DNA of 64,000 bases, from positions 45,192,890 to 45,256,889 of the forward strand of contig OX387183.1 in the NCBI GenBank assembly GCA_947561395.2. The letters run 5' to 3'. Position 1 is the first letter of the stretch. Every line of letters begins with the position of its first letter. This stretch comes from Buxus sempervirens. Its lineage: Eukaryota > Streptophyta > Magnoliopsida > Buxales > Buxaceae. A program made the translations under genes and the position numbers. Below are positions 5,529-54,535 of this stretch, in pieces. The notes under the pieces are model-generated. The model saw nothing but the letters and a program-made list of their open reading frames with translations. It did not search any database and was not told where the DNA came from.

Positions 5529-5617
5529 TGTAGACACCCCAAATTGCACAAACAATCATCAAAAATCATTATCTCCTTGAAAGCCAGCACAGAAATTGCA
5601 GAAAATGAACTTTTACC

Positions 5618-5761
5618 TGTATCCGGTTACTCAGGCCGGATACAAGTACTCCTTCCTGTATCCGGTTACTCATACCGGATACATATGAGCCTTAGTGTAT
5701 CCGGTACCATGTACCGGATACCTTAAGGCCCTTGTGTATCCGGTCTAACATACCGGATACA
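5618..5761. repeat. Palindrome cluster in 5' LTR (4 units)
   Basis: Four imperfect palindromes of the form GTATCCGG, 7 to 12 bases, CCGGATAC, spaced about 35 to 40 bp. The centres differ (TTACTCAGG, TTACTCATA, TACCATGTA, TCTAACATA) while the arms are constant. They lie about 155 bp upstream of the TATA box. Confidence 0.9.
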
Positions 5762-5915
5762 TTAAGTTTGCTCAAAATTAGGGTTTTCGGAGAGAAATCA
5801 CTTGTTACCATCATGTCCCTCATTAAATGAGGGGAAATCTCGGAAATAACCTTAGGGTTAAGGTTGGGGGGTTCTAGACATTAAGTTGTGTCTACCAATG
5901 ACCTTAGCCTTTGCC

Positions 5916-5923
5916 TATAAATA
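5916..5923 (+). promoter_or_regulatory. LTR TATA box
   Basis: TATAAATA within GCCTATAAATAGG, identical in the 3' LTR at 24939-24946 and with a counterpart in element 2 at 54528-54535. This is the likely core promoter for the genomic RNA, with the transcription start expected some 30 bases downstream. Confidence 0.75.
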
Positions 5924-7806
5924 GGAGACTCCTCCTTAAGCAAAAAGGGGAACCAACTCTTGTTTTGAATTCTCGCAAAGAAGAACTCCAAGAGAAGAAG
6001 GAAATCGCTGCGGGAGTGCTTCCAGAATCCAGGTAAGCCTCAAACTTTTCTTTTATTTTATGTCTTTACATTCCTAGATCTAGATCTCTTCTTCTACCTT
6101 TCTGTAGTGTAAAGCCTTCTTTGTGTGTGGAAATCCTTCCCTGGCACAAAGTATCTCAAGACTCCCCTAGCCATAAAACGTGAAGGCGGATCTAGGAGAA
6201 ACGAGACTGGGGATTGACCCTAGTGCTAGAACCCATGTAGCATAAGGCTTTTGAATGATTGAAAACCGTTCTATAATCAAAGTACCCTTGATTATCTCGA
6301 AGAACCGTGTTTAACGGGGAGAGAGAACAGAGGGAAACGATAATGGAACGGAACCCTAGGCTATGCTAGAACCTATTTTGTTGAATCTATATGCATGTTG
6401 TATTAATCTTGCTTGGTTTTTCACTCTTGCACACATATTACACTTTTTGGTGAAAAGGCTCACATTTGGGGATTTATTACATTCATTGTGATAAATCTCC
6501 AATAAATGGCCTCAATCAAATTCTGTAGTGTTTTTAAATGTTTTTCAAAGGTTTTGGATTCATCTCACACACTTTATAAATTTTCGGATTTGATTTTCTT
6601 CAAAAATGGCCTAACTGGACAGCACCTGTACCCTTACTTCGGACGCTCATAAATTCATCGTCCGGATGAATTTTGGAGCGATTCCAGAACATTGGGAAAG
6701 GTGAGGCTGTCTAGTTTATGTCCACCAAATTTCATAAATTTCTATCAAACGGATTTTTGACACTTCTCTGTCGAAGTTGAGTGGACAGTTCAGGTTCAAA
6801 TACAGAACTTGTCACTTCGACGGACCACCATGTGTTCGTTTTAAGTCCGATTCGAGTGATTTTTGTTTCTGAGTACTGATTTATGAGTATATTTTCAAAT
6901 CCAGTTGATTTCATAATTTTTGGATTCCATTTGAATTATTGGTAACCGATTTACTCAGAACTGTTCATTTGTACTTTTCTGGGTAAATCTGTGATCTTCG
7001 GGGCCTGTTCGGGAGATCACCCAAGGCACATCCGAAGGGATTTTTGTATGAGGCTAGTTTATTTTGAAAGATGGCCATACAAACTTCAATCACACCAAAT
7101 TTCGTGGATTTTTATGTAGTGGATGTTTCTGTGTAATTTCCCAAATTTGCCCACTTATCACTTTTAAAAATCCCCAGCAGCAACTTCAAAGGAGCATAAC
7201 TCCTAGGATTTTTATCGGAATGAAGTGAAATTTTGCATGAGACTCTTGTTTACCCTAATCTTTCAAATGGATTTGGTTTGGCTCAATTTAAAATGGTATT
7301 TGAATGATTTCAAGGCAAATGGCATACTTTTTACTGAATTTTCCGGATTTGATTCAACTTGGTTTTTGAGTAACTTGTGCTTTGATTTTCATCTTTTGAG
7401 ACATTCCAGAAATGATATTGACAGAAGGGAAGATCTAAAATCCATTTGGATCTTCATGTGAAAATATCATACATTGGTCTTTTTTCAAGGTTTTCTATGA
7501 TTTTAGCAAGCTTTCTATTTTTGTATGAACGTACACTTGGCAACCACTTCGTGTGGATGAATGGGGGTGCCTAACACCTTCCCCCGTTCATAATCTAATC
7601 CCCTTACCCATCTCTGGATTTTATTTTCAAGTAGGGTTATTTTTATCCTAGAATGTTTCTTTTGTCACTTTTTGCTTATTTTTGAACTCTTTGGTGTCCA
7701 TTCTCACCCCAAAATCATGAATGGTGGCGACTCTCCCATTTTTGTGTTGAGCCCGTGTGTTGACGGAGGGATGATCACTCCGGTGATTTTTCCCATGTCT
7801 CACAAC

Positions 7807-8758: not shown

Positions 8759-8900
8759 ATTAACCGGCAACTCAGGCCGGTTAAGAACACTTTCCTCATA
8801 TCCGGTATATATTTCCGGATACAAAGACATATGCGTGTATCCGGTTAGGGTTACCGGATACAATAAGGCATATTCTTATCCGGTATATTATACCGGATAC
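8759..8900. repeat. Palindrome cluster in leader (4 units)
   Basis: Four units of the same TATCCGG...CCGGATA type as in the LTR (the first is a variant, TTAACCGG...CCGGTTAA). They lie inside the predicted leader intron, about 0.95 kb after the PBS. Confidence 0.85.
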
Positions 8901-9234
8901 GTTCAAAAAAAATGCACAAATTGGCTTTTTCAGCCCGAATTTTCAAGATAAAAATGCCTAAGCACTGTGTATAATCCTTAGGCATCCCAAAGAAAATATT
9001 AAAATGTCAAAAAAAATATAAATAAAATAAAACAAATAAAAAAAATGTATATTCTTTTAGGATTAAACCTAAGGTTGAAACTCAAAGAATGAGCTAAGGT
9101 GTCATATTTTTTGACATCAATTCAATTCAAACATGTGTCAATCAAGCTTTAGAACTTGAAAATCTTCTAAAATGCATCAGATTTCAAAAAAAAAAAAAAA
9201 TAAAACCCTTGGTTGGTCAATCAAATAAAAAAAA

Positions 9235-10466
9235 AAAAGTAGGACACTTGGAAGCCCTAGAATATTCCATGAAAACCTTGGTTGGTTATTTTTATCAATC
9301 AAATCAAAACATGTGCGGGACGCTTGGAAGCCCTAGAATATTCAATGAAAACTTTGGTTGGTTATTTTTATCAATCAAAGTCAATGTTGTTAGGACATTT
9401 GGAAGCCTCAGAATATTCCAAAAACCTTTGTTTGGTCACGAGTACCACTCAAAGTCAAATCTTTTTAGGACATTTGGAAGCCTCAGAATATTCCAAAAAC
9501 CTTTGTTTGGTCATGAGTACCACTCAAAGTCAAATCTTTTTAGGACATTTGGAAGCCTCAGAATATTCCAAGAACCTTTGTTTGGTCACGAGTACCACTC
9601 AAAGTCAATTTTGTTAGGACATTTGGAAGCCTCAGAATATTCCAAAAACCTTTGTTTGGTCACGAGTACCACTCAAAGTCAAATCTTTTTAGGACATTTG
9701 GAAGCCTCAGAATATTCCAAGAACCTTTGTTTGGTCACGAGTACCACTCAAAGTCAATTTTTTTTAGGACATTTGGAAGCCTCAGAATATTCCAAAAACC
9801 TTTGTTTGGTCACGAGTACCACTCAAAGTCAAATCTTTTTAGGACATTTGGAAGCCTCAGAATATTCCAAGAACCTTTGTTTGGTCACGAGTACCACTCA
9901 AAGTCAATTTTTTTAGGACCTTTGGAAGCCTCAGAATATTCCAAAAACCTTTGTTTGGTCACGAGTACCACTCAAAGTTAAATCTTTTTAGGACCTTTGG
10001 AAGCCTCAGAATATTCCAAAAACCTTTGTTTGGTCACGAGTACCACTCAAAGTCAATTTTTTTAGGACCTTTGGAAGCCTCAGAATCTTCCAAGAACCTT
10101 TGTTTGGTCACGAGAACCACTCAAAGTCAAATCTTTTTAGGACCTTTGGAAGCCTCAGAATATTCCAAAAGCCTTTGTTTGGTCACGAGTACCACTCAAA
10201 GTCAATTTTTAGGACCTTTGGAAGCCTCAGAATATTCCAAGAACCTTTGTTTGGTCACGAGAACCACTCAAAGTCAATTTTGTTAGGACATTTGGAAGCC
10301 TCAGAATATTCCAAAAACCTTTGTTTGGTCACGAGTACCACTCAAAGTCAATTTTTTTAGGACCTTTGGAAGCCTCAGAATATTCCAAGAACCTTTGTTT
10401 GGTCACGAGAACCACTCAAAGTCAAAACTTTTTAGGACATTTGGAAGCCTCAGAATATTCCAAGCA
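9235..10466 (+). repeat. Tandem hairpin array, about 75-bp period
   Basis: About 17 units of 74-75 bp. Each contains TTTGGAA, then GCCTCAGAATA, then TTCCAAA: a 7-bp stem with an 11-base loop, followed by a linker with TTTGGTCACGAGTACC and CAAAGTCAA. The first two units have the loop variant GCCCTAGAATA. Because 75 is divisible by three, several frames stay open through the array and give repetitive translations, but frame-shifting 74- and 70-bp units argue against a real protein. Element 2 has an array at the same place with the same loop but different stems. Confidence 0.9.
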
Positions 10467-10680
10467 AAAAAATAAAAAATAAATAAAAATAAAAAAAAAC
10501 AAAAAAAAAATTTTGGACTGGGGTTCACTTGACCTATTTGTCTACATTTATAGGGGTGTATTTCAAATTAAATGGAAGCTGACTTGTGTCTTTGTTTTTC
10601 TTATCCAGGTACATTTACTTTCAACCCAGGTGCACTTATTTGCAGTCATTGCTCCCGTGACCAGATCCAAAGCCCGAACA

Positions 10681-12277
10681 ATGAATACTGAAGAGAACCA
10701 AGCCCAAGCTACTGTCCCTGCTCAGGACTTTACTCAACTGCAGGAGCAAGTGGCCGGTCTGGCCAAGATGCTGGGAGACCTACTGGCGGCTCATGCCCAA
10801 CAGGCCCAAGCCCAGAACCAAGCCTCTACTTCCCATCCGGCACCACCACCTCAGGCCTATATTCCGCCTCCGGCTCAGCCCATGCCTGAGCCCATTTCTG
10901 AACCAGTCCCTGAACCCATTCTGATCAGGGAAAATACAGCTGAGTCTGAGAAAGAGCTGGAAAAAGAAAAGGCCCGAGATGAGATGGAAAGGAAAATGCT
11001 GCTCAGGATAGAACGAATCCAGGCAGAGCTGAAGGAGGTGAAGGGGGGAAGCAGCCATGGAGGCACCACCTTCGAAGACCTGTGCATGTACCCGGACGTC
11101 TGTCTACCGGCTAAGTTCAGGTGCCCAGACTTCGACAAATTTGATGGCACGGGCTGCCCATTAAGCCATTTGAAACTATACTGCGGGGCCCTATGCCAAT
11201 TTGGCCGGGATGATGGCATACTGATCCAACTCTTTCAGAGGAGTCTAACCGGGTCAGCCCTTCGGTGGTTCGCTACAGTGGACCATAGAAGGATTAGAAG
11301 GTGGAAGGACTTGGCCGATGCTTTCTTGGACCAGTACAAGTTCAACTCGGAGATTGTGCCAGACCGGTACGACATGATGAGGATGACCAAGGGCAAAGAT
11401 GAGCCAGTACGGCAATACGCCAAGAGGTGGAGAGAGGCCGCCTCCCAGGTCAGGTCACTTATGCAAGAGCCGGAGATGATCTCAACATTTATGGGCACAC
11501 TGGGGTAGCCTTTTTACAACCATCTGGTGGGCCAGATCACCACCAACTTTGCTGCCCTGGTACAGGTGGCGGACCGGATCGAGGAAGGGGTCAGGTCAGG
11601 AAGGCTGATAGACTACTCTACTCTGACTGGGCAGTCTGATTCCTCGGCCTCCATGGCCCAAAAGAAGGGAACTGGGTTCAAGAAGACAGGGGCCCAAAAA
11701 GAAGGGGAGGTGAACCTGGTCCAGGCTCCTCCAGCCAAGAAGCCACTTCATGTGAACATCTCGGCACCCCAGCAGGCCCAACAGGCCCAGCAGTTGTACC
11801 AGACCCCGCATAATGTCAATTTCTCCCCTTCCGTGCCAGCAAACCAGAGGAGGGCCTTTACTAAGGAGGAGCGGGAGGCCTGGATGGCAGCAAGGAGAAA
11901 TAGAGTCTTCACTCCTCTCCCGATATCGCTGTCCCAACTACTGCCAACCCTGCTGAAGGGGGAATATTTGACTCTGAAGGAGCCTAACCCAAATGCCCCA
12001 AACGGTAGAAATTATGATCCAGCAATCACATGCGATTATCACATGGGTGCACCAGGGCACTCTACTGACACTTGCTGGATGCTGAAGCATGCGGTCCAGG
12101 ACTTGTTGGACCAGAAGGCCTTAGTGTTCAACACTGCTGCACCAGCCCCGTCCGGAAATGATATTGGGCAGAACCCTCTACCGTACCACAATGGGGCAGG
12201 CCCATCCAACTCCATCACTGCCATATCCAAGACCCACTCCCTAGGGGAGATTGAACTGCCTAGGGGAGATTGAACTG
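10681..12277 (+). pseudogene. gag: gag of element 1, interrupted
   Basis: Gag forms the virus-like particle that packages element RNA. The ATG at 10681 is the first after the predicted acceptor. The N-terminal part is rich in Gln, Pro and Glu; the core resembles retrotransposon gag (motifs LYCGALCQFG, GSALRWFA, QYAKRWREAA). A zinc-knuckle-like CDYHMGAPGHSTDTC lies near 12028-12072. A TAG at 11506-11508 replaces the Gln found at this place in element 2 (LGQPFYSHL), after which the frame continues. It ends at a 19-bp tandem duplication (12240-12277) that shifts the frame. The codons just before the ATG (IAPVTRSKAR) also match element 2, so translation may begin upstream on spliced RNA. Confidence 0.88.
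12240..12277 (+). repeat. 19-bp tandem duplication in gag-pro
   Basis: CCTAGGGGAGATTGAACTG occurs twice in direct succession. It adds 19 bases, shifts the reading frame by one and separates gag from the protease remnant. It falls at the junction where the catalytic half of the protease is missing. Confidence 0.92.
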
Positions 12278-13296
12278 CCGGTCACAATTGGGTCGAATAT
12301 CTTTAACATCACATTTGAAGTGATGGATATACCCGCAGCATTCAATCTGCTCCTAGGAAGGCCGTGGATACATTCGGCTAGGGCAATACCATCCACACTC
12401 CACCAAAGGGTGAAATATGTAAGAGGGCAAAGGGTGATAACAGTCCTAGCCGAAAACTTGGTGCCGCCCATCGTGTCACCTGATGTACCCTTGATCAATG
12501 TGGACCTAACTGTCGACAAGATTGCATTCCACTCATTTCAATTTGAGGCGGTCAATTACATACCTGGGGGGTGTGATAAAAAGAAGGAAAGGGGGACCAC
12601 TGCAGAAAAAATGGTCGAGAAAGTGATGGAGAAATACCACTTTCACCCAGGGAAAGGCCTGGGGATCAATCTGCAAGGGATGGTGGAGCCAATCACGGCT
12701 AAGAAACTGATCCCCAAGGTAGGGTTGGGCTTCAAGCCTAGAGGCTGGAGAAGAATGAAATATGAAGAAGGGGAGAGCAGAAGCAGAGGAAAAATCCCTC
12801 ATCTGAGGGAGAATTTTCCAAAACCCTCCCATATAATCCAAATAACTCCTCCTATGGACCAGTCCGAGCCGCCATACCGAAACATTAACCCATTTCAAAA
12901 ACCTTTTGTTTCGGCCCTACAACCCTATAACCCATCTCCAATACTGGGAGCAGCAGATGGGCCTGGGCCACAGCCCGAGCAGCAGGTGGACTTTTCTGAA
13001 GATGTTGGTGCATTCTTCGCCATGACTGAAGGCAAAAAGACAGGGGCAGGCATGGAACTGCCGTTTATTGACTGGGCCGCAGTAAAGATTCCGGAAGAGG
13101 TCATTTCTGGATTGAGCCCCATAGCAAAAAAGGGCAGTACCCACCCGGTGATGATGGCATCGGATGCTGGGCTTGAGGAGCGGACTTTTCCTATTTCCCC
13201 TACTCCCCAAAATTTTGTAATGAACAATTGGGAGGAAACTCCCCTTACCTTTGAAGCAGCGTCTGTGTGGCAAACTGACGCGGCTTCCAAAAAAAA
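12278..13296 (+). pseudogene. Protease remnant and G-patch-like linker
   Basis: The first part (PVTIGSN..., then LLGRPWIHSARAIPSTLHQ) is the C-terminal half of the aspartic protease typical of plant Ty3/gypsy elements. The upstream half that should hold the catalytic Asp-Gly/Ser motif is absent: gag runs directly into this block. At about 12606-12740 lies a glycine-rich motif (FHPGKGLG, later KVGLGFKP) resembling a G-patch, as found between protease and RT in Ogre/Tat elements. The frame is lost at an eight-A run (13289-13296), after which homology to element 2 (CHFPEGSNEP) continues in another frame. The protease cannot be active. Confidence 0.78.
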
Positions 13297-15023
13297 CTCC
13301 AATAGTGGATTGCCATTTCCCTGAAGGTTCTAATGAGCCTTCGTCTTCAGGGGAATTATGTTTAGAAGGCCCACAAAAAAACCAAAAAGATTTTTCTATT
13401 TTTTCTAGAAAATTTAATTTTTTCAAAAAAGTGCAAACCACTTATGAACCCTATAATCAGACCGAATTGGACCAGGTTGAATATGACTTCGACCTTGAGC
13501 TCGACTTTGATCTCATGGGGGTCGAAGAAGAGACCGAGGTCGAAGGAGAAGACGTTCCAAAAGAAATTGGATACTAATTGGAACGTCATGAAAAGGGGGT
13601 CCAACCTAATATTGAGGAGACCATATCCATAAATCTTGGGACCGAAGATGACCCAAAAATTGTGAAAATCGGGTCATGCTTGTCTAATGTGCAGCAGGAT
13701 GAAATGTCACGGTTCTTGGCAGACTACAAGGATGTGTTCGCGTGGTCATACCGGGACATGCCGGGGTTAGACACTGACATGGTGGTACACAAGTTGCCAA
13801 TTTTGCCAGGGGTTAAGCCAATCAAGCAGAAGCTGAGAAGATTGAAACCTGAGTGGACTTTGAAGGTCAAAGATGAAGTGGTCAAACAGTTTCAAGCCGG
13901 ATTTCTGGCCGTCTCAACGTACCCAGAATGGCTCGCAAACATAGTGCCGGTACCCAAGAAAGACGGAAAAGTCAGAATGTGCGTGGACTATAGAGACTTG
14001 AACAAGGCAAGCCCTAAGGATGATTTTCCGCTTCCACACATAGACATCTTGGTGGACAATACTGCGGCCCATAGTCTATTCTCATTCATGGATGGATTCT
14101 CAGGATATAATCAGATCAAGATGGCTAAGGAAGATCAAGAGAAAACAGCATTTATCACACCTTGGGGCACATTCCACTATACAGTCATGCCATTTGGGCT
14201 TAAGAATGCCAGGGCAACATATCAGCGGGCCATGACAGCACTATTCCATAACATGATCCACAAGGAGATGGAGGTCTATGTGGACGATATGATTGCCAAA
14301 TCATGCAAAGAGGAGGACCACTTGATCAATCTGAAGAAAGTGTTTGATCGGCTCAGGAAGTACAGTCTACGGCTTAACCCGGCTAAGTGCGTCTTTGGGG
14401 CTACATCAGGGAAGTTACTGGGGTTTATAGTGAGTCGAAGAGGAATTGAAATTGACCCGGCTAAAGCCAAGGCCATAATTGAAATGCCAGCACCCAGAAC
14501 CGAGAAGGAGGTTCGTGGTTTTCTTGGGAGGATTCAGTACATAAGCCGGTTCATAGCACAGCTCACTGCTATCTGTGAACCAATTTTCAAGCTTCTGAGG
14601 AAGGATAACCCGACGGTCTGGAATGAGAATTGCCAGCAGGCATTCGATAAGATCAAGGAATATTTACTGAACCCACCTGTGCTAGTGCCACCAACCCCAG
14701 GAAGACCACTGATCCTGTACTTGTCAGTGTTGGAAACATCGATGGGATGTGTCTTGGGGCAGCATGATGAGACTGGTAGAAAAGAAAGGGCCATTTACTA
14801 TCTGAGTAAAAAATTTACGGAATATGAAGCCAAATACTCACCATTGGAGAAGACTTGCTGTGCTCTAGTGTGGGCCACTCAGAGGCTAAGGCATTACTTC
14901 CTTAGTCACTCCACACTATTGATATCCCGGATGGACCCGCTGAAGTATTTATTTGAGAAACCGGCACTGACTGGCAGGACGGCAAAGTGGCAACTGCTAC
15001 TGTCCGAGTTTGACCTCACATAA
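13297..15023 (+). pseudogene. pol: pol part 1: reverse transcriptase and RNase H
   Basis: Reverse transcriptase copies element RNA into DNA. After an acidic linker with an in-frame TAA at 13575-13577, the RT domain is nearly complete: KQKLRRLKPEW, PVPKKDGKVRMCVDYRDLN, MPFGLKNARATYQR and the catalytic YVDD at 14278-14289. The thumb and the Ty3-type RNase H follow (AIYYLSKKFTEYEAKYSPLEK, then RLRHYF). In that RNase H the first catalytic Asp is replaced (LYLSVLE), as is common when a second RNase H is present. A TAA at 15021-15023 cuts the protein just before the second RNase H; the next codons continue in frame. Confidence 0.9.
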
Positions 15024-16892
15024 ATCACCCAGAAGGCGATCAAGGGTCAAGCCATAGCTGATCACCTGGCTGCACATCCTTTGCCAAAATATCAACCCTT
15101 GAAGACCAACTTTCCAGATGAGGCAATCCTGTACACTGAAGAGGAGGACAGTGAGAGTTCTTGGCAGATGTTCTTCGATGGGGCCGCCAACATGAATGGT
15201 AATGGAATAGGGGCAGTCTTGGTCAAACCAGATGGTTCACATATCCCAATTGCAGTAAAGCTGAGATTCCAGTGCACCAATAACATAGCAGAATATGAAG
15301 CATGCATAATTGGATTGCAAGCAGCCATGGATCATGGAGTAGAGGAACTTGACGTATACGGGGATTCGAGTCTTATCATCTTCCAAACAACTGGTGAGTG
15401 GAAAACTAAGGATCATAAATTGATCCCCTATTACCAGTATTTGGAAGAAATAAGCACAAATTTCACTCGAATTTCCTTCAACTATATGCCAAGGGCCAAG
15501 AATCAGTTTGCGGATGCTCTAGCAACCTTGGCTTCAATGGTCAGCATACCAGAAGGAGTAAACATCAGACCGCTGGAAATTGAGGTTAGAGATGAACCGG
15601 CTTACTGTCTCGTTCTAGAGGGAGCACCAGAAGAAGAAGCTCCGTGGTTTCAAGATATCAAAAATTTCTTGAACAATCGGAGTCTGCCAGAGAATGCCAC
15701 TGCTACTGAGAAGAGGACAATACAGAGGTTGGCGGGTCAGTTTCTGCTAAGTGGTGGACATGTGTACAAGAGGTCACATAACGACATTCTGCTAAGATGC
15801 GTAGCCAAGGCTGAATCGGAAAGGTTGATCGAGACGGTACATGGAGGAGTCTGTGGGCCCCATATGAGTGGGCACATGCTGGCTAAGAAGATCATGAGGC
15901 TGGGATACTACTGGATGACCATGGAGCACGATTGCTGTATACATGTCAGGAGGTGCCATCAATGCCAAATCTATGCAGATAATAAGCATGCACCCCCAGG
16001 TGAGCTGCACAACATGACATCACCCTGGCCCTTCTCTATGTGGGGCATAGATGTTATTGGCATGATCTCCCCTAAGGCATCGAACGGGCACAGATTTATC
16101 CTGGTGGCGATTGATTACTTCACTAAGCGGGTGGAAGCAGCCTCATATGCAAATATCACAAGCAACCATGTTATTAAATTTTTGAAGCACAATATCATTT
16201 GTCGCTATGGGCTGCCAAGCGCCATAGTATCAGACAATGCTTCAAATATTAAGAACAAGGACATGAAGAAAATGTGTGAGCAGTTTCAGATCACCCATCA
16301 TAAGTCAGCTCCGTACAGGCCAAAGATGAATGGGGCAGTAGAAGCAGCAAACAAGAATATAAAGAAAATCATTCAGAAGATGGTAGTGAGTTACAAAGAT
16401 TGGCATGAAATGCTGCCACTTGCTCTACATGCCTACAGAACCTCGATCCGTACTTCAACTGGGGCAACCCCGTACTCCCTAGTCTATGGGATGGAAGCAG
16501 TCTTGCCCGTGGAAGTGGAGATCCCATCACTCCGAGTGCTCATGGAAGCAGAACTAGAAGAAGCCGAATGGGTCCAGTCGAGACATGATCAACTTAACCT
16601 GATAGAAGAAAAGCGGTTGAAAGCGCTTTGCCATGGACAGTTGTACCAGAAGAGAATGGCCCGGGCTTACAATAAGAAAGTGAGGCCTAGAACTTTCCAA
16701 GAAGGAAACCTGGTGATAAAGAAAATTCTACCATTTTTGGAAGATCCTCGTGGTAAGTTCAAGCCCAATTGGGAAGGCCCATATGTCGTCAAGAAAGTCC
16801 TATCAGGGGGAGCACTCATCTTAGCAGAAATGGATGGGTCAGATTTTCCTGAACCAATAAACTCTGATGCAGTAAAAAGGTATTTCCCTTGA
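15024..16892 (+). pseudogene. pol: pol part 2: second RNase H and integrase
   Basis: This is the in-frame continuation after the TAA at 15021. The second RNase H (archaeal-like, diagnostic of Tat elements) has its acidic residues: FFDGAA, NIAEYEA, YGDSSL and FADALA. Integrase follows: an HHCC zinc finger (HGGVCGPHMSGH...CIHVRRCHQC), then the DDE core with GIDVIG, VSDNAS and GAVEAANK. The end (FKPNWEGPYVVKKVL, closing near KRYFP) is the usual plant gypsy C-terminus without a chromodomain. This 603-residue segment has no further stop and looks well preserved, but as part of a broken polyprotein it is expected to be silent. Confidence 0.92.
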
Positions 16893-17831: not shown

Positions 17832-19548
17832 CTAGTCTCTGTCTCCTAGCCGCTCCTCAAGCTCCCGAATCCGAGCTGCCTGAGCTGCAATGACTCCTGA
17901 AGCCCCCTCTGCAGCGGGATCACTCAAGAAGGAAATTACCTCATCTAAAAGGGCCTGCTTGATCCGCATACTCCTAAGGCTGGCCAAAGTAGCTTGGTAC
18001 TTCTGCCGGATCATACGGACCTCGAAGCAACGGGCCTGCCTCTGCTCCTCCAGCTTCTCTTCCACGGCAATACGGCGTGAGATCTGCTCCTCAAGCTGCC
18101 TCTCCAGATAAGTGCCCTGTATCCTGAGCTCCTGGGCCTCCCGTACCCATATCTGCTGAAGCCGCTTATGTGAAGCCAGCTCAGACTCTAGAATGTCCTC
18201 ATAGGTGGGAGCCAAGACTACAGGAGGATCTTCGGGTACCGGGGCCTGAGTCTGTATCTGTTCCTTTATCCAGAAGAGATAATCCTTCACATGGGCTTCT
18301 GAGAAGACTGGACCATGCATGAAGCGGACATAGGACCACTCCTTCATCAACCAGGCATTCAGCTTCATAGAAAGGGGCCCAAGACGATCCTCATATCCAC
18401 ATGGGATGATAATCCCCTGGGTCGCACGAAACTGACGAAGGACCCGCAGAGGAAGATACAACACTGCATGCTTCAGGCCCGCTAGGATCAGAAAGTTGCG
18501 GTCACGAAAGCTAATCACTGTCGCTGCATTGGGCTGATAAGTGCCAGGCCATCTCACCTGGTCCTCCTGAAGTGAGCCCAAGAAAGTGAACCAGCCCTGT
18601 TTGCCCCCTAGAATATCGGGGCACCCACTGTTGCTCATCAAGAAGGGGACTTTTAGACTCGGGAAGAAGTGTTGATTGATCTCTTCAATCTGGCTCAAAT
18701 GATCAAGTAGCCAAAGCTGCAAAGGAAGAGAGATATGTCAACACATTGTAAAAAAAAAAAAAAAGCAGAAAAGGCAAAAAGAAAGCCAAAAAGCAAGAAA
18801 AAAAAAGAAATAAAAAAAAGAAAAAAAAAATTTTTTTTACCTGCAGGATCTGGGCACATGCTAGGAAGCGTTTCGACTTCCTATTGTAGCAGTCAGTTAA
18901 GGCCTGATACATCCCAGCTAAAATCATAGGGGCCAACCTCTCCCTCTCCCGAACCTAGCATATCACTGAGATTAAGGCCAAGTCCACCTCGTCATCCTCC
19001 CGTGGGAAAAGTAACTGGTTGACCACAATCAAGGTCAAGGCGTTGAACCGGGTCTCCTTATCTTCCCCCCTCAAAAGCTTCTCAGTCAAAAAGGCCTTAG
19101 ATAGGGTCAAAAGGGTGTCAGAATCCCCCAAGTCCTTCTTCCCTATGCCCAAGAATGTAGAAGCTTCTTTTTTGTAACTGGGCCTAAGAGGTGGATTTAC
19201 CACCTTCTCATCAAACCTCAAGCCCAGGATAGTTTCCACCTCCTCAATGGTTGGGGTCATCTCATGGTTCCCAAAACGAAACAAGTTGAGGTCAGGAACC
19301 CAATGACCAATCATGGCCTCTATAATCTCCCACCTGAAGGGAACCTTGGGAATAAGCAGGATGTGACCTAGATTAGTAGTACCCCATCTCCTCTCCTCAT
19401 CTAGGGTCATAGAGTTAACGCACCTTGTGTAAAAGGAATCCACAGGGTTGTACCTTGTGAGATTTGGGGGTTTTGATCTAAAAGGTTGTTTTGCAGGGGA
19501 GGCAGTGTGGACAGGCTATAATGGGGCAGAAGATGATCCGGATTCCAT
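17832..19548 (-). pseudogene. Antisense gene 2: PMD-like coiled-coil protein, two nonsense codons
   Basis: Two exons on the minus strand: 19548-18841 (236 codons) and 18716-17832 (294 residues), joined in phase by a GT-AG intron at 18840-18717. Exon 1 has plant mobile domain features (HILLIPKVPFRWEIIEAMI, then MTPTIEEVETILGL). Exon 2 ends in a charged coiled-coil region (LERQLEEQISRR..., RIRELEERL). The ATG at 19548 gives a frame with TAG at 19518-19516 and another TAG at 18957-18955, where the surrounding VIC*VRERERLAPMILAGM suggests loss of a Gln codon. If a later start is used, about 200 residues still precede the second stop. PMDs occur in plant regulators such as MAIN and in transposable elements; the role here is unknown. 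Confidence 0.78.
18717..18840 (-). other. Intron of antisense gene 2
   Basis: On the minus strand it starts GTAAAAAA after ATCCTGCAG and ends CTTCCTTTGCAG. It is 124 bases, with a long T/A-rich middle on the transcribed strand. Both flanking exons join in phase 0. Confidence 0.75.
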
Positions 19549-19677: not shown

Positions 19678-19820
19678 GTATCCGGTTACTCAGACCGGAT
19701 AACAAAGGTTTTATCCATATCCGGTTAAGTATACCGGATACAAAGGGGATCATGAGTATCCGGTATAGTATACCGGATACAAAGACCAGTCAATGTATCC
19801 GGTATATCAGACCGGATACA
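19678..19820. repeat. Palindrome cluster between the antisense genes (4 units)
   Basis: Four GTATCCGG...CCGGATAC units as in the LTR of element 1. The cluster lies between the 3' end of antisense gene 1 and the TATA box of antisense gene 2, so it probably belongs to the gene 2 promoter. Confidence 0.88.
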
Positions 19821-20024: not shown

Positions 20025-22552
20025 CTACTGTGCAGGATCATCCACACGGCCTCGGCCACGTCCACCTCTACGGCCCCTCCCTCGAAGCGCTCTGCCCCTA
20101 GAGTAGGCAAGAATACGCTCAGCTGCATGGCGAGGATGCCGACCCACCACCTGCTGGAGCTGATACTCCAAGCAATACTCCTCGATGTCTGGGGGCAGAG
20201 CAGGAGCTGAATCTGGGGAGGAGACCTCTGGCTCAACAGCAACCGGCCCAACTGGACCCTCAGCCATAGCAGGCTCTGCTCCCGCAGCTCCAGAAGGCCC
20301 GGCAGCAGAAGAATGGCCAGGAGCAGAAACATCTGGATCAACAAAAAAAAAAAAAATCAGAAATGAAAGCATCAGAATAAACCAAAGAGGAAAAATTAAA
20401 GAAAGCATACCAGGGATATCTACAGCAGGCACTAGGGGATCCGGATCCACCGGGTCAGCAGCAGGGACCTCCTCCGGCTCAGGAACCATCACTGGAGATG
20501 AAGGATCAGCAGATGGGACATCCACAGGATCCATAGCCCGAGCAGGAGACGGGTCAGGAATGAGGAAATCATACTCGAAGGCAACATCCTGATCTGGGAC
20601 CGAGCCCTGCACAAGTCAAACAAGCATATCAGAATAGCAGAAACAAGAAAATGAAAGAAACAAAAATATAAGAAGGCCAGATACCTGTCTAGCCTGAAGC
20701 TCAGCAACCAAGGCCTCCAGCTCCCTGATCCGGGCATCCCGCTGGGCCACGACCGCATCATGCTCAGCGATCATATCATCAATCGCAGCCCGCTGGCTCT
20801 CGAACCGGTCCCGAATGGTGTTCAGCTCGTGTACCTGCCAACAAGAACAGAAGTAGGGTCAGAAATACATAAAGGAAGAAAAGATGAAGATATGAAAAGT
20901 ACAAGACTTACTGTGTCCTCATGAATCCGGATACGGATCCCGCCAATCTCTGTCACCCCGGCACAAGTGGGTCGATCCATCAAGCATCCTATAGATACCC
21001 GCTGGTAGGACTGACGTCGTCGATCTCTATCGAAGGCGTCCTGTACCGCCATCTCACGAGCCACTCCGACATCCACATCATCAAATCGGGACAGGAGGAG
21101 CTGCAAAAAAGGGAAACAGTCAGGTACAATCAAGATACAGGAAAGGAAATAAAAGAAAAAAGATAGAGGACTTACATCAGATCGGCGGGCACGGTCCAAG
21201 TGCACCCGAGCGGTGCGGGGCTGACTCCTATCAGCATCCCGGACCTGGGCCGACCATCGCAAAGCCACTGGGAAATCTGCGACCTCAGGTACCGGGGATG
21301 GGCGGAAGAAGGTCATATAGGTGTACATGAACACCTAGCAAAAGAAAAATCACTCAGAAAAAAATGAAGCATAAGGGATTAACCCAGACAGATGAATTCA
21401 ATACCTGTAGAATCTGCCAGAAAAACCGGCTGCTGACTCCATCACCTCTCGGAGATGCTAAGCCTCGAACCGCTCGGCACATCCCGGCCAGGATGGTCCC
21501 ATAGATGAGTCGGCCCCATGCCAGCTGACGGGTCTGACGAAGATCTCTCAAAGCATCCAAGAAAAGTGGGCTGACACCAGTGGTATCCTCCGGGAAAAAG
21601 CAGCTCCCAAGCATCAGCAAGAATACGTGCCGGAAGATAGGCACAAAGGCTGCATCCTCCACGGAGATGGTCTCGTGCCTCCTCTCAAAATGACGAGCCA
21701 GACTCTCCCGTAGCCAACTAATGGAGAGCCGGCCACTCCGCCCATCCCAAGCAGCAGGTGGCAGGGCCTGATATCCTAGAAGGAGGCCGATGTCCTCCGC
21801 AGAAGGTCGCTCCAAGACAAGGGTCCGCCCCGTCAAGGGAATGCCGGTAATCATCACAAAATCGGAAGGGCGGATCCCTAGCTCCACGTCCGGAAGGTGG
21901 AAAGACTGAGTCTCCGGAAAATACCTCTCCATCATGGCAAATATAAGTGGACGATCAGCTCTGAAGGAAGGAATGCTGAGGAAATGATCTAAATGGCACC
22001 TCCCAAACTCCCGCCTGAGTGCCGGAGACAGTGACTGAGCTAGCTCACTAAATCTCCCCCAACTACCCCGCAGATGGGAAGAATGATATGGAAGCGGCAC
22101 ATCTGCCCTGATGCACATAGAGGGGTGGCTATCCAAGCCACGAAGGAGCTCTGTATCATGCACAGAGGCCCTCAACTCCTCAGAAACTCCTGCCAGAGCT
22201 ACAGCAACCCCCTCCTGAGCCGTATCTTTGGCTCTGCCTCGGCCTCTGCCACGGCCTCTCTCGCCCTCAAGGGCCTGATCCTGAACTCTGCCTCTGCCAC
22301 GGCCTCGACCACGAGCAGGTGCAACCACGGGCTAAATTTCAAAAAAAAAGTATGAAGGTTGTGTGGGAAAGGAGAATAGAAGAAAGAAGAGAGAGAAAGA
22401 ATTTGAAAGCCTACCTCAGCAGAGCTCTCTCGGGAGACATCTAGCGGCTCCGACAGGGTGGCGCTGGAACTCGCCTCTGTCCGAGCCCGCGAACTGGAGG
22501 GCTGATCAGCAGGGTCAGACTCCTCTCTAACACGGGAACGACTCCTAGCCAT
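20025..22552 (-). CDS. Antisense gene 1: intact 7-exon plant mobile domain protein
   Basis: Coding exons on the minus strand: 22552-22415, 22331-21405, 21334-21176, 21100-20912, 20834-20685, 20606-20411 and 20332-20025. All six introns are GT-AG, the exon sum is 2067 bases and there is no internal stop, giving 688 residues. The ATG directly follows an acceptor-like TGTTGTAG. Order: a Ser/Arg-rich N-terminus; Arg-Gly repeats (RGRGRGRGR) near residues 53-85; a PMD-like region about 110-375 (HFLSIPSF, RYFPETQSFHLP, DFVMITGIPLTG, SWLRESLARHF); a coiled coil in exon 5 (RDARIRELEALVAELQ); a Pro/Asp/Ala-rich acidic stretch; and a second Arg-Gly tail (RGRGRRGGRGRGR), suggesting nucleic-acid binding. 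The domain assignment is by pattern; function is unknown. That the frame is preserved while gag-pol is broken is notable. Confidence 0.85.
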
Positions 22553-23935: not shown

Positions 23936-24000
23936 GTATCCGGATACTCAGGCCGGATACAAACAAGGCCAGGTGTATCCGGATACACATACTGGATACC
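23936..24000. repeat. Palindrome cluster upstream of antisense gene 1 (2 units)
   Basis: Two units with TATCCGGATA or GGCCGGATAC arms, the same type as the LTR clusters. The cluster lies just upstream, on the minus strand, of the GC-rich first-exon region. Confidence 0.8.
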
Positions 24001-24551: not shown

Positions 24552-26837
24552 TGTAGACACCCCAAATTGCACAAACAATCATCAAAAATCATTATCTCCT
24601 TGAAAGCCAGCACAGAAATTGCAGAAAATGAACTTTTACCTGTATCCGGTTACTCAGGCCGGATACAAGTACTCCTTCCTGTATCCGGTTACTCATACCG
24701 GATACATGTGAGCCTTAGTGTATCCAGTACCATGTACCGGATACCTTAAGGCCCTTGTGTATCCGGTCTGACATACCGGATACATTAAGTTTGCTCAAAA
24801 TTAGGGTTTTCGGAGAGAAATCACTTGTTACCATCATGTCCCTCATTAAATGAGGGGAAATCTCGGAAATAACCTTAGGGTTAAGGTTGGGGGGTTCTAG
24901 ACATTAAGTTGTGTCTACCAATGACCTTAGCCTTTGCCTATAAATAGGAGACTCCTCCTTAAGCAAAAAGGGGAACCAACTCTTGTTTTGAATTCTCGCA
25001 AAGAAGAACTCCAAGAGAAGAAGGAAATCGCTGCGGGAGTGCTTTCAGAATCTAGGTAAGCCTCAAACTTTTCTTTTATTTTCTGTCTTTACATTCCTAG
25101 ATCTAGATCTCTTCTTCTACCTTTCTGTAGTGTAAAGCCTTGTTTGTGTGTGGAAATCCTTCCCTGGCACAAAGTATCTCAAGACTCCCCTAGCCGTAAA
25201 ACGTGAAGGCGGATCTAGGAGAAACGAGACTGGGGATTGACCCTAGTGCTAGAACCCATGTAGCATAAGGCTTTTGAATGATTGAAAACCGTTCTATAAT
25301 CAAAGTACCCTTGATTATCTCGAAGAACCGTGTTTAACGGGGAGAGAGAACAGAGGGAAACGATAATGGAACGGAACCCTAGGCTATGCTAGAACCTATT
25401 TTGTTGAATCTATATGCATGTTGTATTAATCTTGCTTGGTTTTTCACTCTTGCACACATATTACACTTTTTGGTGAAAAGGCTCACATTTGGGGATTTAT
25501 TACATTCATTGTGATAAATCTCCAATAAATGGCCTCAATCAAATTCTGAAGTGTTTTTAAATGTTTTTCAAAGGTTTTGGATTCATCTCACACGAATCTC
25601 ACACACTTTATAAATTTTCGGATTTGATTTTCTTCAAAAATGGCCTAACTGGACAGCACCTGTTCCCTTACTTCGGACACTCATAAATTCATCGTCCGGA
25701 TGAATTTTGGAGCGATTCTAGAACCATGGGAAAGGTGAGGCTGTCTAGTTTATGTCCACCAAATTTCATAAATTTCTATCAAACGGATTTTTGACACTTC
25801 TCTGTCGAAGTTGAGTGGACAGTTCAGGTTCAAATACAGAACTTGTCACTTCGACGGACCGCCATGTGTTCGTTTTAAGTCCGATTCGAGTGATTTTTGT
25901 TTCTGAGTACTCCTTTATGAGTATATTTTCAAATTCAGTTGATTTCATAATTTTTGGATTCCATTTGAATTATTGGTAACCGATTTACTCAGAACTGTTC
26001 ATTTGTACTTTTCTGGGTAAATCTGTGATCTTCGGGGCCTGTTCGGGAGATCACCCAAGGCACATCCGAAGGGATTTTTGTATGAGGCTAGTTTCTTTTG
26101 AAAGATGGCCATACAGACTTCAATCACACCAAATTTCGTGGATTTTTATATAGTGGATTTTTCTGTGTAATTTCCCAAAGTTGCCCACTTATCACTTTTA
26201 AAAATCCCCAGCAACAACTTCAAAGGAGCATAACTCCTAGGATTTTTATCGGAATGAAGTGAAATTTTGCATGAGACTCTTGTTTACCCTAATCTTTCAA
26301 ATGGATTTGGTTTGGCTCAATTTAAAATGGTATTTGAATGATTTCAAGGCAAATGGCATACTTTTTACTGAATTTTCCGGATTTGATTCAACTTGGTTTT
26401 TGAGTAACTTGTGCTTTGATTTCCATCTTTTGAAATATTCCAGAAATGATATTGACATAAGGGAAGATCTAAAATCCATTTGGATCTTCATGTGAAAATA
26501 TCATACATTGGTCTTTTTTCAAGGTTTTCTATGATTTTAGCAAGCTTTCTATTTTTGCATGAACGTACACTTGGCAACCACTTCATGTGGATGAATGGGG
26601 GTGCCTAACACCTTCCCCGTTCATAATCTAATCCCCTTACCCATCTCTGGATTTTATTTTCAAGTAGGGTTATTTTTATCCTAGAATGTTTCTTTTGTCA
26701 CTTTTTGCTTATTTTTGAACTCTTTGGTGTCCATTCTCACCCCAAAATCATGAATGGTGGCGACTCTCCCATTTTTGCGTTGAGCCCGTGTGTTGACGGA
26801 GGGATGATCACTCCGGTGATTTTTCCCATGTCTCACA
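24552..26837 (+). repeat. 3' LTR of element 1
   Basis: It matches the 5' LTR except for about 30 substitutions and two indels, including an 11-bp duplication (ACGAATCTCAC) near 25590. It repeats the four-unit palindrome cluster (24641-24784) and the TATA box (24939-24946). It ends TCTCACA, followed by ctatg at 26838-26842. Confidence 0.95.
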
Positions 26838-28570: not shown

Positions 28571-29313
28571 TGTGACATCCTGGCTATTTGAGTGGGCTGG
28601 TGAATGGGTAATCTCACTGGGCGACCTACCAGGCGAGGATGTGCATATGGTTGGGATCCCACAACGCTCGGAGATGCTATAAGTAGTATTGTGATCCCTT
28701 ACAAAGCAAGAGGCCTTTTAAGGTATAACACAAGACTAAATCCCCTTAGAACCCTGAAGTTAAGTGTGCTCGGGTGAGAGCAGTTCTAGGATGGGTGACC
28801 ACTCGAAAGTTTTCTCGTGTTATCTCTTGAGAACAAATCCGTGAGGGCCCATTGGGCCTAGAGCGGACAATATCTTGCTGGGTATGGGTCGGGACGTTAC
28901 AAATGGTATCAGAGCCTGCCCCGACCAGAAAGTGTGGGGGTTCGGCCCAACGCGAGGACGTGTTGTCCCATGGAGGGGAATATGTGACATCCTGGCTATC
29001 TAAGTTGGTGGGTGAATGGGTAATCTCACTGGGCGAGCTGCCAGGTGAGGATGTGCATATGGTTGGGATCCCACAACGCTTGGGGATGCTATAAGTAGTC
29101 TTGTGATCCCTTACAAAGTAAGAGGCCTTTTAAGGTATAACACGGGACTAAATCCCCTTAGAACCCTGAAGTTAAGCGTGCTTGGGTGAGAGCAGTGCTA
29201 GGATGGGTGACCACTAGGAAGTTTTCTCGTGTTATCCCTTGAGAACAAATCCGTGAGGACCCATTGGGCCTAGAGAGGACAATATCTTGCTGGGTATGGG
29301 TTTGGGACGTTAC
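28571..29313 (+). mobile_element. Cassandra-type TRIM element (last base at 32310)
   Basis: Two LTRs of about 331 bp (28571-28901 and 28983-29313, with the final A displaced to 32310) surround an internal region of only 81 bp. A PBS TGGTATCAGAGC (28904-28915) fits tRNA-Met, and a purine-rich AGGGGAATA precedes the 3' LTR. Each LTR contains a 5S rRNA-like segment, the defining trait of Cassandra. The duplication ataga stands at 28566-28570 and at 32311-32315, after a nested insertion. There is no coding capacity, so it depends on other elements for movement. The LTRs differ at some two dozen sites, so it is older than element 1. Confidence 0.93.
28709..28823 (+). promoter_or_regulatory. 5S rRNA-derived pol III promoter in Cassandra 5' LTR
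   Basis: It resembles plant 5S rRNA: CTGAAGTTAAGTGTGCTCGG near 28755-28774 matches the A-box region and CTAGGATGGGTGACC near 28786-28800 matches the C-box region. A second copy lies in the 3' LTR (about 29121-29236). The mismatched 5S ends and the LTR context show it is not a 5S gene. Confidence 0.88.
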
Positions 29314-34172: not shown

Positions 34173-34502
34173 TGTAACGCCCCAGACCCATAACCAGCAA
34201 GATATTGTCCACTCTGGACCCACGGGCCCTCACGGATTTGTTTTCAAGGATAACACGAGAAAACTTCCCAGGGGTCACCCATCCTAGCAGTGCTCCCACC
34301 CGAGCACGCTTAACTTTAGGGTTCCCAGGGGATTTAGTCCCGTGTTGCTCCTTAAAAGGCCTCTTGCTTATTTGGGGGTCTCAAGACTACTTATAGCATC
34401 CCCGAGCGTTGTGGGATCCCAACCATATGCACATCCTCACCTGGTAGCTTGCCCAGTGAGATTACCCATTCACCCGCCTACTCAGACAGCCAGGATGTCA
34501 CA
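34173..34502 (-). mobile_element. Cassandra solo LTR, minus orientation
   Basis: A 330-bp copy of the Cassandra LTR on the minus strand (begins TGTGACATCC, ends GGGGCGTTACA), with a perfect atgaa duplication at 34168-34172 and 34503-34507. It contains the 5S-like segment (A-box-like and C-box-like strings in reverse around 34270-34320). One LTR remains and no second is present nearby. Confidence 0.93.
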
Positions 34503-40329: not shown

Positions 40330-43300
40330 TGTAAGCACCCAAATTTTTTTCAAACCAAATAAAAGAGAAAAAAATGTGCTAAAAAACAACAAAATAGCTC
40401 AAGACCCTAAGGGGCAAAAACTTGACCTTTTGATCAAGTGATAGTTGGCCACCTTGCTTTATCTCAATGGATAGAGAATCCCGACACGAGTCCAACGCAA
40501 CTGAGTTTGCTGGAATCGGAGTCCGGCTGAAGGTTCTGTGGGCCGGTCAAACTTAGAGGATGAGCCGAAAGTTGACTTTTTCTCAAACCCCGTACCAAGT
40601 GCTTAGCCCTATGTCATTGGATAGGGGCTCCGATATGAGTCTAACGCAATTGAGTTTGCTCAAATCGGAGTTCGGATGAAGGAGATATGAGCTGTCGAAG
40701 TTTCCGAGCAGCAAAACCGGAAACTGCACACGTGGCACAAGAACTGCCCACACGGTGGCCAACGCAGCAAAATATCTTAGGGACTAAATCTTAAATATCC
40801 AAAATTCATAGGGGGCAATCCGTAGATATCCAAAAGTGTCAAATCGGTCGAATCGGTCGAATCAGTCAAGTCGAAGGGCAAATCCGTAATTTTTTTATTT
40901 GTATCTGGTCAAATATGCCGGATACACATACCCTTGAGTATATCCGGACTCAAATGCCGGATACAAGAAGATTTTCGCGCGAGATTCGCGCCGATCGCCC
41001 GACAAATTCGCGGCGGCATTAATTTTTCAAATAATTATGTTTTGTAGCCGGCATTGAATGCCGGATACAAAGAAGCCTCTGTGTAACCGGTCATGGAGGC
41101 CGGATAAGGAGAAGCCTTAGTGTATCCGGCCTGAGTTGCTGGATACATTAAGTTTGGCTATAAAAGCCAAACAGCAGCTCATTTCCGGGGGTTGGCTTCT
41201 TTTGGCTTTTCTCCAGCTCTCTTCTCCCACTTGCTCACCTCCGAATCCCATCTCTTCCCACTCCCTAAGGCATCTACCACCACCCTGGACCATCTAAAGC
41301 CACTCCAACCCTCCTTTTCTTTCTCCATCTTCACTCACACTCCAACAAGAGGGAGAGGAAAAGCTGCTGTGCTCAAGAAGGAAGATCTCCGGCTGTTGTA
41401 CCACCTCAAGAGGACATCTCCACCTTGCTCAAGGGTTCAAGAACCCCCAGCTATCGCTTCTTACTAAATTTTACTTCATATATATGAGAATGAGGCCTTT
41501 CTAAATATGTTGAGGTGCATGGTTCTTCATTGCTGCTATAAGTCCCTTTGAGTGCCCATATGGTATGTACTTGTTTCCCTTTTCATGTCATGAAGACTTC
41601 CAAAGGTAGGAGGTTCACGTGTGAGTTCTTAGGCACATGAGAGTTCAGTTTTGCACACTTGTAGTGGTCGTAGGGTGCTGTTTTGGCCTTCTTTTTCAAG
41701 TATCACTAGGAGGAGCCTGTTCCTCCCATTTTCAATCCAATGTACCCCCCATGATAAGCCCCCTTCTCTTTCCTTTCTTCAAGTGCTTTCTTTTTTCTTG
41801 TTTTGAGCATGAGACTTGAGCTTAGACTTTGCGGCTTCTTGCCTTCTTTGTGTGTTCTCTTACATGCGTAGTGGCATGCATGCTAGGAACATATGGGCCC
41901 TTGTCCACTTCTATGTTTTTTTTTACATGTTAGATCAGGCCTTCCATGGCATGATAGCTACTGTTTTCATCATTTGAAAGTCAGTCCATATGAGTATGCT
42001 AGATGTGTATGCATGTACTCTCAGGTGTTAAAAGATGTTAATATGCTTGGCTCATAGTGATTGTTCCGTCTAGTAATTGTATGAATGTAAACTAGTTTAC
42101 AGATCTTAGGGCGTATCCTAGGATGTGTGGGAGCGTGAGCACTCTCGTATGTTTTTTAGTAAGATCCATGTATGGTAGTTAGGAGCTTTGATTGCGTGAT
42201 GGAGGGCAGCAATCCCATTGCCCTCCCCTCTCTCCTTTGGCTAGCTAAGAATCCAAGAAAAGAAGCCAAGAGGGGAGATCCCCAAACCTGAACCAATGTG
42301 GGCCCATCCGAGGGCCCACATGACTAGTAGAAGGCCAAAGGAAGCCCCTGGAAACCACCCCAATTGCCAAAATCCGAAAAAAGGCTATCTTGGGGTGATC
42401 CGGCAACTCAGGCCGCATCACCTACAGCCCATGTGTATCCGGCAAATCAGGCCGGATCACCTAGGGATTGTGTGTATCCGGCAACTAAGGCCGGATACAC
42501 GACAGAAATGTCTATTTTTTTTATCTTCTTGATCCTTGGCCGAATTTTGTGATGATCTTCACCAAAACCATTGAACCAACAGGCCCGGAAACCCAACATG
42601 GGACCTGGACCATGGTCCAATTTGGTGCACCTAGTGGGCCTTCCAACGGGGCCCACCAAGCCCGATAAACTCAAAGCATGCAAATGAATAAGTATAAGTA
42701 AAATGAACCATTCGAATCGGGTGGGCCAAACCCAATGCGGCCCACCCGAACCTTGGTATGTGTACTAAGTATGTGAATTGCATGGTTTGGCCGAGACCAA
42801 GGGCTAGGGCCTATCGGGCCCGCCATAGCCCGCTAACCGAACCAAGTTAGGGTGCAAGCCCTAGACTTCAAAGAACTGGGCTTTCGAGCCCAAACCTGGA
42901 TCACGGGCCCCAAGCCCAGTGACCAGCCCATCTTAGCAAATTTAAGCAAATCCAACATACTTTGGCAACCACCATGGGGGCCCGCCTAAGGGCCCACAAA
43001 CCAATGCAAACTCACTTATTGCATGAAAATCACATAAGGCTCCAAACTTGAACAAACTAAATAAAATCAAGTCACCTCACCAAAGCCCACAGGGCCTCCT
43101 AAGCTTAAACAGAGGCCCACATGGGCACATGGGCTCACACAAGCCCGCCAAGGACACCGTGGGCCTTCCAACGGGGCCCACCCCATCAAACTCAGATCAC
43201 CTAAGATAAGCAAAAGATAAAATCAACTAAAGGGACCCACACCACTCAGGTGGTCCTGCCAAGACTTAATTAAATGACATGCTGGAATAGGAACCGGGTG

Positions 43301-53954: not shown

Positions 53955-54225
53955 GTTAGTAAACTTTTTGTTAAGACTCTTCCTAGACTTTAATTTATGG
54001 CTCAGTTGTGATGTAACTCGGATATAAGGGTTTTTGGATTGTTACTGATGCTATGATATATGCATTGTATTTAGTAATGCTTATTCAAGTTGCAAGTTTT
54101 AGTTTGGGGTTGTGTAGACACCCCAAATTGCACTAAAAATGAGAAAATAATTGAAAATATTAATTGGGATTTGAAACAGGTCAAAAAAGTATAAAATCTG
54201 GCCAAATTAGTCATGACCGTATTTT

Positions 54226-54319
54226 GTTTACGGTCTAGTCATACCTGCAGTTGATATACGGTCACGGCGTGCCCGTATTAATAATACGGGCAGGGCGCAA
54301 CCGTAATATATATACGGTC
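54226..54319. repeat. Palindrome cluster in the LTR of element 2
   Basis: Three to four imperfect palindromes with CCGTAT or CCCGTAT and ATACGG or ATACGGG arms (for example GCCCGTATTAATAATACGGG). Same position relative to the TATA box as the CCGGATAC cluster of element 1 but a different arm sequence. Confidence 0.82.
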
Positions 54320-54527
54320 ACAGGGGTCTTTGTGCGAATTTAACCTTTTTAATTTTTGAGCCTTATCTGCACCCAAATATCTCTCTTGGATAAGCGAATT
54401 CTCTTATTTATCTATTCGAATTATCTCATTTATCCTTGTGGATAAAGGATTGGCATGATCTTGTGTTTAACTCAAACTGAAACTCTATCTTGCCAAACCT
54501 TGGACCAACCATACCCCTGTGCTTGCC

Positions 54528-54535
54528 TATAAATA
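54528..54535 (+). promoter_or_regulatory. TATA box of element 2
   Basis: TATAAATA within GCCTATAAATAG, about 210 bp after the palindromes and about 107 bp before the splice donor, as in element 1. Confidence 0.75.

Follow-up and report, generated by a model that had tools for sequence, protein, structure and literature searches.

The 64,000-nucleotide stretch of Buxus sempervirens DNA analysed here (the window) contains an Ogre-like LTR retrotransposon, young and now broken, whose minus strand carries two intron-containing genes of the PMD superfamily and whose non-coding regions carry arrays of a constrained palindrome phased at 39 bp. It is possible, with a probability that we put at about 0.4, that the proteins encoded by the antisense genes regulate their own element, perhaps by de-silencing it, through these palindromes. 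The complete picture, of an LTR retrotransposon endowed with its own sequence-specific self-activation or anti-silencing in the form of a spliced antisense PMD-superfamily pair and a phased palindromic operator, is offered more tentatively. The occurrence of PMD genes in Ogre elements is already known; the second antisense gene with its common intron and the palindrome arrays go beyond an earlier, sequence-only reading of this DNA. Published work is cited by PMC number.

The element was delimited by self-comparison, by the ends and flanks of its LTRs and by its domains, as follows.

5529-26837, plus strand: LTR retrotransposon, Tat clade, Ogre-like, 21.3 kb, with the 5-bp duplication CTATG on either side
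5529-7804, plus strand: 5' LTR, 2276 bp, with TATAAAT at 5916
24552-26837, plus strand: 3' LTR, 2286 bp, differing from the 5' LTR by 31 substitutions in 2275 columns and 2 indels
10483-13324, plus strand: gag and G-patch region, open frames stop to stop, broken (stop at 11506, 19-bp duplication)
13578-16892, plus strand: pol with RT, RNase H, second RNase H (PF13456) and integrase, broken by a stop at 15021

Direct TG...CA LTRs, which start TGTAGACACCCC and end CACA, together with the target-site duplication, gag and pol, identify it as an LTR retrotransposon. The sequence-only reading had placed it in the Tat lineage and had described the element as dead. The placement is upheld by the RNase H-like domain PF13456, which sits between RT-RH and integrase (residues 51-169, ahead of rve at 336-433 in the same pol frame); elements of the Tat clade have a second RNase H in pol, and in Ogre and Retand it separates RH from integrase (PMC6317226). 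As for the damage, the frameshifting 19-bp duplication in the gag region was confirmed near 12.25 kb, and no protease family was matched among the frames scanned, in agreement with the damaged protease that had been described. Two of the "at least three" nonsense codons are clear (11506 and 15021), and the third (13322) may be the normal end of gag-pro.

The gag-pro frame ends 253 nt before the pol frame opens, a gap for which the published mean in Ogre is 274 bp (PMC6317226). The element appears Ogre-like by its size, its PMD gene and this gap, which agree with Ogre, rather than by phylogeny. PMD-carrying Ogre elements (Tat, Ty3/gypsy) resemble it in the second RNase H between RH and integrase, the very large size, the PMD extra gene and the gag-pol gap; compared with Ogre as described in PMC6317226, it is distinguished by an antisense PMD gene, seven exons, a DUF7745 partner and palindrome arrays. 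Retand elements with antisense TRP28 are alike in belonging to the Tat clade and in having a long region from pol to the 3' LTR, antisense genes and tandem repeats. In Retand, however, the LTRs are 315-1194 bp and the internal region 7.4-12.9 kb, and TRP28 (PF04195) is found as an antisense domain in 97% of clusters (PMC11963269), whereas here the LTRs measure 2.28 kb and the internal region 16.7 kb, and PF04195 (Transposase_28) was unmatched in the 15 proteins scanned, a subset of the element's antisense frames. The element is called Ogre-like because its LTR and internal lengths lie above the Retand ranges, TRP28 gave no match and 57% of Ogre elements are reported to carry a PMD (PMC6317226). 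Given that frequency, and the existence of clades PMD-A1/A2 that are reported to be exclusively gypsy-encoded (PMC5418596), the label "cargo gene" applied to the antisense PMD gene in the sequence-only reading undersells it; PMD in gypsy elements is also reported in PMC9289625.

Reverse transcriptase relatives were abundant (6404 matches), and among the 120 listed those named by organism were all dicots, at 59-75% identity; the matches listed include Cajanus, Gossypium, Hibiscus, Vitis, Cucumis, Mucuna and Theobroma. At the rates used for LTR dating, 1.3e-8 and 7e-9, the 31 differences in 2275 columns between the LTRs correspond to an insertion age of about 0.5-1 million years. An Rfam scan and a tRNA scan of the window gave no match.

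The PMD gene occupies the following segments of the minus strand.

22415-22552, minus strand: exon 1, 138 nt, start codon at 22552
21405-22331, minus strand: exon 2, 927 nt, bulk of the PMD domain and Arg-Gly repeats
21176-21334, minus strand: exon 3, 159 nt, in which the PMD match ends
20912-21100, minus strand: exon 4, 189 nt
20685-20834, minus strand: exon 5, 150 nt, borderline heptad stretch (residues 494-521)
20411-20606, minus strand: exon 6, 196 nt
20025-20332, minus strand: exon 7, 308 nt, stop codon and Arg-Gly tail

These seven exons (22552 to 20025) have the lengths originally claimed and join into 2067 nt, or 688 codons plus stop, with 0 internal stops; all six introns, 70-83 nt long, run from GT to AG as had been stated. 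The introns are 27-35% G+C and 49-62% T, the exons 56-62% G+C. Stops number 24 in the unspliced frame and 12-43 in the other five frames of the joined coding sequence. Codon (three-base) periodicity of the joined sequence reaches 12.0, and the highest value among 500 shuffles is 2.7; taken singly, four of the seven exons are significant, the exceptions being exons 1, 3 and 4. Introns 3 and 6 are stop-free and a multiple of three in length, so that the frame stays open if either is retained, and their removal is not proven by sequence alone.

The proposed identity of the protein was confirmed by a Pfam profile search (PF10536, E 9.3e-18, 64.9 bits against a gathering cut-off of 34.9), the match extending over residues 166-408 and crossing junction 2, between exons 2 and 3. 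Arg-Gly tails are present at both ends, as described. The coiled coil attributed to the same protein is weak: the 0.53 scored by its top heptad stretch (residues 494-521) just equals the 95th percentile of 200 shuffles, and the score of the second antisense protein (DUF7745) is weaker, 0.38. A homologue search with the whole PMD protein returned one match among 7979 scored candidates, a protein of Juncus effusus (P0001, 28% over 31%), and a search with the domain only returned none among 7995, both searches scoring just the candidates with most words in common. The PMD protein found no match in a PDB sequence search. The structure predicted for exon 2 with two other rows has a mean pLDDT of 42.8 and was set aside. 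Viral contigs that were searched held no RT relative, no PMD relative and no palindrome pair.

The sequence-only reading set an intact PMD gene against broken gag and pol, a contrast that might suggest selection. That argument did not survive, since neutral decay is enough to explain the intactness. When a PMD coding sequence was simulated as evolving neutrally to the divergence of the LTRs, with substitution and indel rates taken from the LTRs and loss of the start or stop codon ignored, the probability of no stop was 0.57-0.69, and that of no stop, no indel and all splice dinucleotides kept was 0.20-0.23. Gag, pol and the second antisense gene together have four internal stops over some 2530 codons; at that density 1.1 would be expected in 688 codons, the probability of none being about 0.34. 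The insertion is so young that an intact PMD gene is expected by chance, and its presence beside dead gag/pol calls for no special explanation. The selection argument is also undercut by the sister antisense gene, which has two in-frame stops.

This second gene comes after the PMD gene.

18841-19548, minus strand: second antisense gene (DUF7745/PMD superfamily), exon 1, 708 nt, putative start codon, in-frame stops at codons 11 and 198
17832-18716, minus strand: second antisense gene, exon 2, 885 nt, after a 124-nt GT-AG intron

Its exons (19548 to 17832) join to 530 codons, the two stops in frame. DUF7745 (PF24924) is matched by the upstream piece at 46.3 bits and by the downstream piece at 36.9 bits, above the gathering cut-off of 26, and both pieces also match PMD, below the cut-off of PMD itself. 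When the PMD protein, the DUF7745 protein and the Juncus relative were aligned, the intron of the second gene coincided with PMD intron 2 both in alignment column (that of the last codon before the intron) and in phase (0), in all three MAFFT modes. Pairwise alignments of the PMD and DUF7745 proteins to the Juncus protein each yield the same register; direct pairwise alignment of the two antisense proteins fails to recover it. The exons before both introns end in ILQ, which aids the alignment, so the test of intron position is not wholly independent. The simplest reading would be a single ancestral intron-containing gene that was duplicated within the element lineage, which would mean that an intron outlasted repeated retrotransposition; two independent captures of host PMD genes having this intron in common are the alternative. 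The antisense introns probably outlived many retrotranspositions. The suggestion, made in the sequence-only reading, that they ride on the strand other than that of the genomic RNA is strengthened by the intron position common to both genes.

Plant LTR elements are generally without introns, Ogre and EVADE being named as exceptions (PMC12786077), and the Ogre intron lies between gag-pro and pol (PMC6317226). Tat elements have antisense genes between pol and the 3' LTR, one such protein being nuclear-localised (PMC11963269, PMC7264820), and PMC7264820 urges the examination of antisense and spliced transcripts. The available text of PMC6317226 contains none of the terms "palindrom", "introns" and "antisense"; that of PMC11963269 contains neither "intron" nor "mobile domain", and has "palindrom" in the reference list only. 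Among the matches listed from the open-licence literature, neither a spliced antisense PMD gene nor a palindromic operator was found in titles or abstract starts.

The palindromes have the core TATCCGG-N9-CCGGATA, which occurs in 17 exact copies in the 64-kb window and in 24 copies with at most one mismatch. In 40 simulated windows (first-order Markov), the mean was 0.0 for both classes, and no exact core occurred. Fifteen exact cores lie within the element, 0 of the 15 in the listed coding intervals (9660 of 21309 bases); like the VANC motifs, the core is short, repeated and located in non-coding DNA of its element. The arrays are distributed as follows.

5620-5759, no strand assigned: array of 4 exact units at 39-bp spacing in the 5' LTR, 157 bp upstream of the LTR TATA motif
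8761-8899, no strand assigned: array of 3 exact units and 1 degenerate unit in the untranslated leader
19679-19818, no strand assigned: array of 4 exact units, followed immediately on the minus strand by TATAAA (19665) and then by the second antisense gene
23937-23998, no strand assigned: a pair of palindromes 39 bp apart, the one exact and the other with 1 mismatch, at 1.4 kb upstream from the start codon of the PMD gene
24643-24782, no strand assigned: array of 4 units, one with 1 mismatch, in the 3' LTR

The TATAAA beside the array at 19679-19818 stands 117 bp before the putative start of the second antisense gene. For the PMD gene the array is weak, with two units at a distance of 1.4 kb; a further palindrome at 23860 has 3 mismatches, a level that chance also reaches, and no TATA motif was found between 22553 and 24551, upstream of the gene. 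The leader array has no obvious promoter adjoining it and no minus-strand frame of at least 120 codons nearby. Tandem repeats of about 75 bp (9234-10500) lie between this array and gag.

Within arrays, the spacing is 39 bp in 16 of 17 cases and 38 in the remaining one, at the degenerate unit (25 units examined, those with three mismatches left out). Between the three four-unit arrays, 4 of 168 arm positions differ, compared with 44 of 108 in the spacers and 120 of 192 in the linkers; the corresponding figures within arrays are 6/252, 88/162 and 185/288. Mean column information over 12 units is 1.94 bits in the arms against 0.84 and 0.48 for the rest, and the arm value was reached by 0 of 100,000 random column choices, the arms having been picked after inspection of the data. 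The ratio of observed to expected CpG is 1.02-1.49 in the arrays versus 0.08-0.63 in the other element regions measured, partly because the core itself contains CpGs and is kept. When the two LTRs of this copy are compared, the arms show no advantage (1 of 56 positions changed, with 1 of 36 in spacers and 1 of 64 in linkers), so that no constraint is visible since insertion. The arrays may have recent common ancestry; drift in the spacers and linkers makes this unlikely as the whole reason for the likeness of the arms. Fixed half-sites at a fixed spacing, with drifting bases between them, point to recognition by a putative dimeric or multimeric DNA-binding protein.

According to the self-regulation model, the element lineage would carry a minus-strand regulatory module consisting of two PMD-superfamily genes between pol and the 3' LTR, both transcribed from their own promoters. 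Their introns would escape removal since it is the opposite strand that is packaged as RNA, and on that strand they are not introns. One or both proteins would bind the 39-bp-phased palindromes of the non-coding stretches near the LTR and these genes; binding would raise transcription or lift silencing, akin to the action of VANC on VANDAL. The antisense proteins are the nearest candidate readers because the sites lie by the LTR and by these very genes, and because VANC offers a precedent for element-encoded regulators. We infer the expression, splicing, DNA binding and direction of effect of the module, and the choice between activation and de-silencing is a guess. The proteins themselves seem to lend little support to the idea of a dimer, the heptad score being borderline for PMD and lower for DUF7745. 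VANDAL is a DNA transposon, the motifs of VANC21 are in one orientation and the VANC protein family differs from PMD; the system described here belongs to an LTR element with phased palindromes. VANC/VANDAL (a MULE) and the present element are alike in a transposon-encoded protein and repeated short non-coding motifs, the link between protein and motif being in our case one that we infer. In their own transposons, VANC proteins bind short motifs that recur in the non-coding parts (PMC5735166), and they are the precedent for element-encoded regulators that read the repeated motifs of their own element (PMC5735166, PMC10398659). Antisense transcripts may also feed silencing via double-stranded RNA (PMC12786077).

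PMD proteins silence transposons in Arabidopsis, yet also sit in retrotransposons (PMC5418596). A constrained palindrome by the LTR and the antisense genes of one element provides a concrete, testable candidate for their DNA target, and the common intron position is evidence for the long-term keeping of spliced genes on the non-genomic strand of an LTR element. HTLV-1 is a virus of people, in which the HBZ transcript is spliced and its protein is unrelated to PMD. The likeness to HBZ lies in a retroelement antisense gene for a nuclear protein (PMC11963269). For the PMD domain, whose own function is described as still to be determined, an anti-silencing use has been suggested where it is captured by MULEs (PMC5418596). 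The host PMD proteins MAIN and MAIL1 affect transposon silencing, and the promoters of some dependent genes have a DNA motif in common (PMC7156037). MAIN and MAIL1 are host genes, of clade PMD-C, and the proteins of the window are element-borne; both belong to the PMD superfamily. If the model were true, the module would be a retrotransposon counterpart of VANC, PMD proteins would gain a DNA target, and common ancestry of MAIN/MAIL1 with an element-borne DNA-binding regulator would be suggested.

The main rival to self-regulation is a host factor reading the palindromes. These would then be host transcription factor sites driving the LTR and the antisense genes, and the PMD proteins would do other work, for example on chromatin or RNA via their Arg-Gly tails. 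Host factors are commonly used by LTR enhancers, and the leader array is without an evident adjoining promoter. The presence of a phased array by two antisense gene starts and both LTRs fits self-regulation, yet a host factor predicts likewise, and we consider this rival somewhat unlikely. It is appreciably more doubtful that the antisense genes are passengers, descended from an ancient captured PMD gene, functionless, and intact since the insertion is young. Such an origin gains from the chance expectation for PMD intactness (P 0.20-0.69), from the broken sister gene and from a related element (54113 to beyond 64000) that has gag and in which neither the antisense genes nor most of pol are matched. 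It is countered by the recurrence of PMD in Ogre and other gypsy elements across many plants (PMC6317226, PMC9289625, PMC5418596); a recognisable domain, open exons and good splice sites would, moreover, presumably not outlast long neutral evolution.

The arrays might act as RNA hairpins in the genomic RNA, in packaging, export or stability, and not as DNA sites. Their units are inverted repeats with arms of 7-9 bp around 9 nt, the sense transcript would hold the internal arrays and that of the 3' LTR, and Arg-Gly tails can bind RNA. The primary sequence of the arms is nearly fixed, however, and the 39-bp phase is kept. Furthermore, 17 of the 25 units have an unchanged core, seven are changed in one arm only and one in both; a compensating change in the opposite arm is thus found in only one of the eight units with a changed core, three of the others keeping a G-U pair and four being mismatched, which leaves hairpins quite improbable. 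Least probable of all is a host takeover of the PMD gene at this locus, with selection at the level of the host preserving it as the rest of the element decays. PMD host genes do exist, namely MAIN and MAIL1 (PMC7156037), and the CpG ratio of the PMD coding sequence (0.63) is the highest among the coding parts measured, but an insertion about 0.5-1 million years old is too brief to separate selection from chance.

Self-regulation aside, several other features of the window were recorded. The related retroelement at 54113-64000, cut by the window end, has a gag frame at 59011-60585 (524 codons). It lacks the palindrome core even when three mismatches are allowed, and neither the antisense genes nor most of pol found a match in it; it is probably a non-autonomous relative. 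An LTR-like related stretch (40902-41146 and 42397-42497) bears the same palindromes at the same spacing, with TATAAAA after the 41.1-kb array; three of its units, when compared with the LTR, differ at 3/42 arm, 20/27 spacer and 17/48 linker positions. A transposase piece (DDE_Tnp_4, E 5e-13), presumably of the PIF/Harbinger type, is found on the minus strand at 48347-48814, and a Myb/SANT-like DNA-binding domain (PF12776, E 1e-7) on the plus strand at 53072-53350. Finally, repeats of about 330 bp, 88-89% alike, are present at 28571-29313 and 34173-34502, two on the same strand and one inverted.
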